Below are positions 37,453 to 37,509 of a DNA stretch of 64,000 nucleotides, piece by piece. How positions within the stretch are numbered: the stretch's first letter is position 1; every line of letters begins with the position of its first letter. The position numbers were made by a program, and so were the translations under genes. The notes under the pieces were generated by a model. It had not been told where the DNA came from. It saw nothing but the letters and a program-made list of their open reading frames with translations, and ran no database searches. Source of the stretch: Saccharofermentans sp. (GTDB lineage Bacteria > Bacillota > Clostridia > Saccharofermentanales > Saccharofermentanaceae); NCBI GenBank assembly GCA_016288885.1, contig JAEFAV010000007.1, positions 78,356-142,355 of the forward strand, read 5' to 3'.

Positions 37453-37509
37453 ATTGTAAGGCCCTGAGAGCTTTGATTAAAGCGACAAAATCCGACAAAA
37501 ACCGACAAG
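37453..37509 (-). promoter_or_regulatory. Putative Tad operon promoter with three TGTCG direct repeats
   Basis: Minus strand CTTGTCGGTTTTTGTCGGATTTTGTCGCTTTAATCAAAGCTCTCAGGGCCTTACAAT; -10-like TACAAT 29 nt after third repeat. Confidence 0.6.

Follow-up and report, generated by a model that had tools for sequence, protein, structure and literature searches.

The DNA analysed here, referred to as the window, is a stretch of 64,000 nucleotides (nt) from a Saccharofermentans sp. genome (G000; contig JAEFAV010000007.1). It carries a tad operon on the minus strand and comEA on the plus strand, each headed by a triple array of TGTCG repeats (Table 1). An earlier note on this DNA had drawn attention to both arrays, and re-reading of the coordinates agrees with its description. 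The tad array, TTGTCGGTTTTTGTCGGATTTTGTCG on the minus strand, has its TGTCG units at 37507-37503, 37497-37493 and 37487-37483, i.e., at 10-bp steps, while those of the comEA array start at 56586, 56595 and 56605, at 9- and 10-bp steps. The -10 boxes, TACAAT and TATGCT, each start 29 nt past the start of the third repeat. The genes had also been named correctly. The tad genes show the features of a Tad (Flp) pilus, namely a TadA ATPase (PF00437), a TadB/C platform protein (PF00482) and small pilins (Flp-like and TadE-like open reading frames (ORFs) recognized by eye), and ComEA combines SLBB and helix-hairpin-helix domains. The protein in CpaE/TadZ position (302 amino acids, aa) had no match in Pfam, and NCBIfam was of no help with it either.

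Within the window, the pattern TTGTCGN4TTGTCG with at most one mismatch matched three times, always at the tad or the comEA array, as compared with a mean of 0.28 in shuffled windows, none of which (0/100) gave three matches. The claim that the array precedes no other gene of the window therefore holds. When the whole 3.0-Mb assembly was scanned by sequence pattern, TTGTCGN{2,3}TTTGTCG yielded 13 matches versus 2 for the reversed control pattern, so that the arrays are far more common than the controls, and not at chance frequency, which the earlier note had named as a finding that would speak against its proposal. T-rich intergenic TGTCG arrays lie ahead of tad, comEA, recA, comEC (PF03772, 1.3e-23; divergent from engB), a second tad locus and three paralogous genes for proteins of about 260 aa. 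The second tad locus contains TadE-like and other pilin-like (minor-pilin) genes behind pheT; the TadE-like protein drew no useful match from NCBIfam or Pfam. One further array match (C42:91645) sits at a contig end. The other loose matches fall mostly within coding sequence, and TGTCG-N4/5-TGTCG pairs in coding sequence, about half of the loose matches, were treated as background. Each of the eight resolved sites stands ahead of a gene for transformation, for Tad or for a nuclease-like protein, none of which had been preselected. A shared promoter element thus stands ahead of comEA, comEC and recombination genes, as in a competence regulon, and the earlier note's expectation of arrays at other com genes is borne out by comEC, with recA and the second tad locus in addition.

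Table 1 Features of the tad and comEA loci in the window
Feature	Position	Strand	Remarks
Triple TGTCG array, tad promoter	37483..37508	-	Tandem 0A-like boxes; kept at CpaE promoters of relatives
-10 box TACAAT, tad	37458-37453	-	
First tad-operon gene, CpaE/TadZ-position protein	36504..37412	-	Shine-Dalgarno sequence AAAGGAGG ahead of ATG
TadA/CpaF secretion ATPase	35311..36507	-	PF00437, 1.2e-48
TadB/TadC-type platform protein	33801..35375	-	PF00482
Flp-type pilin-like ORF, 57 aa	33613..33786	-	GMGTVEIVIIIAVLVALALLF; read by eye in translation
FHA-domain membrane protein	32261..33559	-	PF00498, 6.3e-11; last in tad operon
Triple TGTCG array, comEA promoter	56585..56610	+	Overlaps rsfS terminator
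Inverted box (CCGACAA on plus strand)	56616..56622	-	Between comEA array and -10 box; also at comEC and several nuclease promoters
-10 box TATGCT, comEA	56634..56639	+	6 nt 5' of ATG; leaderless mRNA predicted
comEA (SLBB and helix-hairpin-helix DNA receptor, 238 aa)	56646..57362	+	PF12836, 1.4e-18; PF10531, 4.3e-13

To assess conservation, GTDB contigs were searched blind for exact matches to the triple array, and the figures in this and the next two sentences apply among the matches listed. Their titles comprise Saccharofermentans, Mageeibacillus and metagenome-assembled genomes and isolates of Ruminococcaceae or Clostridiales, and a homolog of ComEA, ComEC, CpaE, TadE, ComM or the 260-aa family is encoded within 1.2 kb downstream at 32 of the 38 loci with Clostridia-type titles, a tally for which some reference sequences were drawn from those very loci. 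Of the remaining six, three carry the array within a coding frame and one lies at a contig end, and the matches from other phyla that were examined proved to be mostly low-complexity coding repeats. Most of the 87 genus members contain 4-24 array matches as against 0-1 control matches. Among cultured rumen isolates, Ruminococcaceae bacterium AB4001 and YAD3003 have arrays, and KH2T8 has them in the 0A-type form. In six relatives read in detail, arrays precede comEC, comEA, tad, tadE, recA and the nuclease-like family, and additionally ComM (Mg_chelatase/ChlI) and YraN (UPF0102). In other bacteria, ComM is a helicase that acts in transformation by branch migration. In several promoters of CpaE homologs, TACAAT is found at an unchanged offset. 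Arrays at comEA, comEC, tad, comM, recA and nuclease genes are thus a conserved feature, within the genus as well as outside it; the earlier note would have counted their absence from relatives against it.

The geometry of the promoters is equally regular. In 40 of 70 promoters, the best -10 box is found at a distance of 28-29 nt from the final intact TGTCG, and in another 15 it is one helical turn further away (38-40 nt), a degenerate unit often lying in between. The array's last box stops immediately 5' of the -35 position, a placement that would correspond to that of a class II activator. An ATG follows the -10 box after 5-7 (mostly 6) nt at comEA (12/12), the nuclease-like genes (21/27) and comEC (6/8), as opposed to only 1 of 23 tad and tadE promoters, which have Shine-Dalgarno leaders. 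With the -10 box about 6 nt from the start codon, the mRNAs for ComEA, ComEC and the nuclease-like proteins look leaderless, as predicted from sequence, and the constant spacing lends independent support to the -10 assignment. Note that a likely rsfS terminator (CCGGCAGGGATCATCCTTGTCGG followed by a T-run, window positions 56572-56597) coincides in its 3' arm and T-run with part of the comEA array, the 3' arm being common to the first comEA box, an overlap on which the earlier note was silent. Many promoters of comEA, comEC and the nuclease-like genes have an inverted CCGACAA between array and -10 box, which is not present at tad; it could provide added repression or looping.

The approximately 260-aa proteins, three of which are encoded behind arrays in G000, form the most numerous target class. 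The three paralogs and their relatives share invariant residues E148, K163, D180 and E195 in PD-(D/E)XK-like order. Pfam gave no convincing match for the paralogs and NCBIfam nothing useful. The structural model has a predicted local distance difference test score of 89, and the best Foldseek hits were Bax1, DrdV and MunI, albeit weak (E >= 0.075). The three paralogs are probable PD-(D/E)XK nucleases. Also observed behind arrays were Rpn-type recombination-promoting nuclease/transposase-like proteins at four loci (L309 and L310 in G017, L318 and L335 in G001); L310 scored 27.9 bits against TIGR01784, which is below the cutoff.

In two relatives (G017 and G001), the array unit is TTGTCGAA at 10-bp steps and thus identical to the Spo0A box TGTCGAA; these genomes have exact tandem TGTCGAA boxes, and G000 has the variant TGTCGG. 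G000 encodes exactly one protein with a Spo0A_C domain, 175 aa in length (G000:C1:5669-6196), which is named SpoL in this analysis. It belongs to the Spo0A_C superfamily (PF08769, 26.4 bits with a cutoff of 25). The Pfam search returned PF08769 alone and no Response_reg domain, such that the receiver of Spo0A was not found, and the score with the Spo0A equivalog model TIGR02875 was 20.4 bits with a cutoff of 200. In the AlphaFold model the C-terminal domain is confidently predicted and the N-terminal 65 or so residues form a small helix-strand unit. The seven best Foldseek hits were all to the Spo0A effector domain (1lq1/1fc3, probability 1.00, E-values 0.04-0.16). A SpoL-type gene, one per genome, occurs in 142 of 148 relatives, and its neighborhood, ligA-ygfA-SpoL-histidine kinase/response regulator, is kept in the three genomes compared (G000, G005, G017). 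SpoL is therefore a strong candidate for the activator that the earlier note had postulated without naming it.

Further insight came from relatives without TGTCG arrays. These still have ComEC, and their comEC promoters carry tandem repeats of about 10 bp made up of other units: TTTCGKA in G032, G037, G045, G071 and G078, with G052 mixed, and TGTRAGR in G050, G055 and G075. Within a genome, the tad promoters match the comEC unit (TTTGTGAGACTTTGTGAGATTTTGTGAGA in G050, TTTTCGTATTTTTTCGGAGC in G045). The Glu-Arg pair in the recognition helix of SpoL aligns with the Glu-Arg of Spo0A. It is replaced by Val-Arg in 6/6 members of the TTTCGKA group (G052 included) and by Ser-Arg in 3/3 of the TGTRAGR group. 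Each of the two groups forms a clade with full bootstrap support, and regulator and boxes have therefore changed jointly on two independent occasions. The first group alters position 2 of the box and the second positions 4 and 5; Spo0A has been reported to contact G2, C4 and G5 of TGTCGAA (PMC3485338).

We consider it probable that the arrays are the operator-promoters of a natural-transformation regulon, most likely activated by SpoL. A regulator consisting of a Spo0A effector domain and a small N-terminal remnant, with no receiver, would bind three or four boxes arranged in tandem at intervals of one helical turn, the last unit ending beside the -35 position. Once bound in response to its signal, it would activate rather than repress, assisting RNA polymerase of the sigma-70 type where a promoter offers a -10 box and not much of a -35 element. 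Its targets would be the Tad pilus (two loci), ComEA, ComEC, RecA, the probable-nuclease family and, in relatives, ComM. Tad is likely the DNA-uptake pilus, because its genes share the arrays and because there is a precedent in Micrococcus (see below). The genus also encodes a type IVa PilB/PilT pilus, at whose locus the genome pattern scan gave no array match. The existence of this second pilus weighs against our interpretation, and so do several other points. The classes of altered boxes were drawn up post hoc on the basis of the comEC promoters, with the tad promoters viewed afterwards, and there are only two independent specificity switches. G054 has Ala-Arg in SpoL, yet its TGTCG array counts are normal, and G003, G035 and G066 changed the box while Glu was retained. 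The most serious point is that no SpoL was detected by protein, Pfam or profile search in G006, G023 and G046, which have arrays or array-like comEC promoters, and an HMMER and synteny search (ligA-ygfA-p145-SpoL-kinase-response regulator) of 1.46 Mb of G006, part of that genome, revealed neither SpoL nor its ligA/ygfA neighbors.

The three array-bearing relatives lacking a detectable SpoL lend some weight to the possibility, which we rate as unlikely though far from negligible, that a genuine regulon is activated by a protein other than SpoL. This could be an OmpR-type response regulator together with its histidine kinase, since such a pair adjoins SpoL in G000, G005 and G017, or a different factor altogether that acts in the genomes lacking SpoL as well, the changes in the SpoL helix then being coincidental. 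OmpR-family response regulators also bind direct repeats of about 10 bp. However, the box is the known box of Spo0A, it is the Spo0A_C recognition helix that differs in both box-changed clades, and the stretches of G006 contain no ortholog of that response regulator (best 27-32% identity). A lower probability still is assigned to a surface-pilus and DNA-repair or defence regulon, in which ComEA and ComEC would be nutritional or vestigial and nucleases and Rpn-like proteins would destroy incoming DNA. Probable nucleases are indeed the most numerous targets, and Rpn-like nucleases and Fst/Ldr-like peptides (described below) stand behind arrays in some relatives. On the other hand, RecA and ComM represent recombination steps that integrate DNA once taken up, so nutrition makes little sense, and every genome in which ComEC was sought proved to have it.

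The identity of the box with TGTCGAA in some relatives could also mean that the arrays are ordinary 0A boxes of the sporulation network, with com and tad as peripheral Spo0A targets. This is very improbable: the only Spo0A_C protein has no receiver and falls an order of magnitude short of the Spo0A equivalog cutoff, and the array loci gave com, tad and nuclease genes and no recognized sporulation gene, sporulation genes not having been searched for as such. The chance that the arrays are not operators at all, and that terminator T-runs or low-complexity repeats merely recur, is in our estimate close to nil. The comEA array does overlap the rsfS terminator, those of recA and tad also lie beside hairpins, and coding DNA of other phyla contains low-complexity TTGTCGCCTTTGTCG. 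Yet the counts are far above those of the shuffled and reversed controls, and orthologous promoters retain the array and the fixed -10 offset though their flanks differ, which led us to reject a chance or low-complexity origin. An explanation by terminators only was likewise rejected, as the geometry relative to the -10 box is kept across many promoters despite the terminators near the comEA and recA arrays.

The evidence thus supports a conserved and apparently undescribed transformation-type regulon in Saccharofermentans-like rumen Clostridia. The earlier note had proposed an undescribed competence-type regulon, and this is backed by the arrays at com, recA and tad genes, their conservation and their above-chance frequency, from which we infer co-induction of the genes and natural transformation. 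A literature search, with most subscription papers outside its coverage, found no report of such a regulon. With a confidence slightly better than even, we go further and propose that the master regulator of sporulation has been reduced to a receiver-less transformation activator in a lineage that lacks canonical Spo0A, that its regulon switched specificity at least twice through matching changes in one recognition-helix residue and in the boxes, and that Tad serves as the uptake machine.

Spo0A and its promoters in Bacillus and Clostridium resemble the present system in effector-domain fold, in tandem TGTCGAA-type boxes at the helical repeat and in the recognition-helix Glu-Arg pair, which most SpoL members retain. 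Spo0A activates beside the -35 element of sigma-A promoters, as at spoIIG, and SpoL may act in a similar manner. Unlike Spo0A, SpoL has no phosphorylatable receiver, the box in this clade is TGTCGG, and the targets concern DNA uptake, the Tad pilus and recombination. The late-competence regulons of Firmicutes (ComK in Bacillus, ComX/SigX in Streptococcus, and sigma-H, as in Lactobacillus sakei; PMC3364868) likewise place comEA, comEC, recA, pilus and nuclease genes under one shared promoter element. The present regulon differs from them in box and regulator family, in a Tad instead of a ComG pilus, in a ComM-type helicase and in predicted leaderless mRNAs. In the actinobacterium Micrococcus luteus, Tad/Flp-pilus-dependent transformation has been proven by knockouts, and two tad gene clusters may supply the DNA-uptake pilus; the abstract of that study describes no shared operator element (PMC4322843). 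Natural transformation appears to be undocumented in these abundant rumen and gut Clostridia. If our interpretation is true, it provides a defined regulator whose induction would open these bacteria to genetic work, shows the fate of a sporulation regulator in a lineage lacking canonical Spo0A and ties Tad pili to DNA uptake in Firmicutes. It would also offer a natural series for the joint specificity change of a regulator and all its sites, and connect unannotated genes for nucleases, helical proteins and small peptides with transformation.

Some further arrays deserve mention. At recA (L001, C20), a hairpin terminator comes after the array, and a second array, degenerate and adjoining a standard -35/-10 promoter, lies further downstream, which suggests a constitutive plus a regulated promoter. 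In the single-contig genome G090, from another family of the order, arrays (L272/L247, L235, L284) precede its own Spo0A-like gene, ParA/Soj and ComM; the Spo0A-like gene is possibly autoregulated, and its array counts in favor of our interpretation. Short hydrophobic Fst/Ldr-like peptides such as MDRLLSFLSSIVAGVIANTLSKWLDRRK, with a GC-rich terminator-like hairpin on the 3' side, are encoded directly behind arrays in G006 (L301, L304) and G012 (L315) and may represent type I toxin-antitoxin units within the regulon. Finally, small proteins of unknown family are encoded behind arrays in G006 (L300) and G001 (L317).
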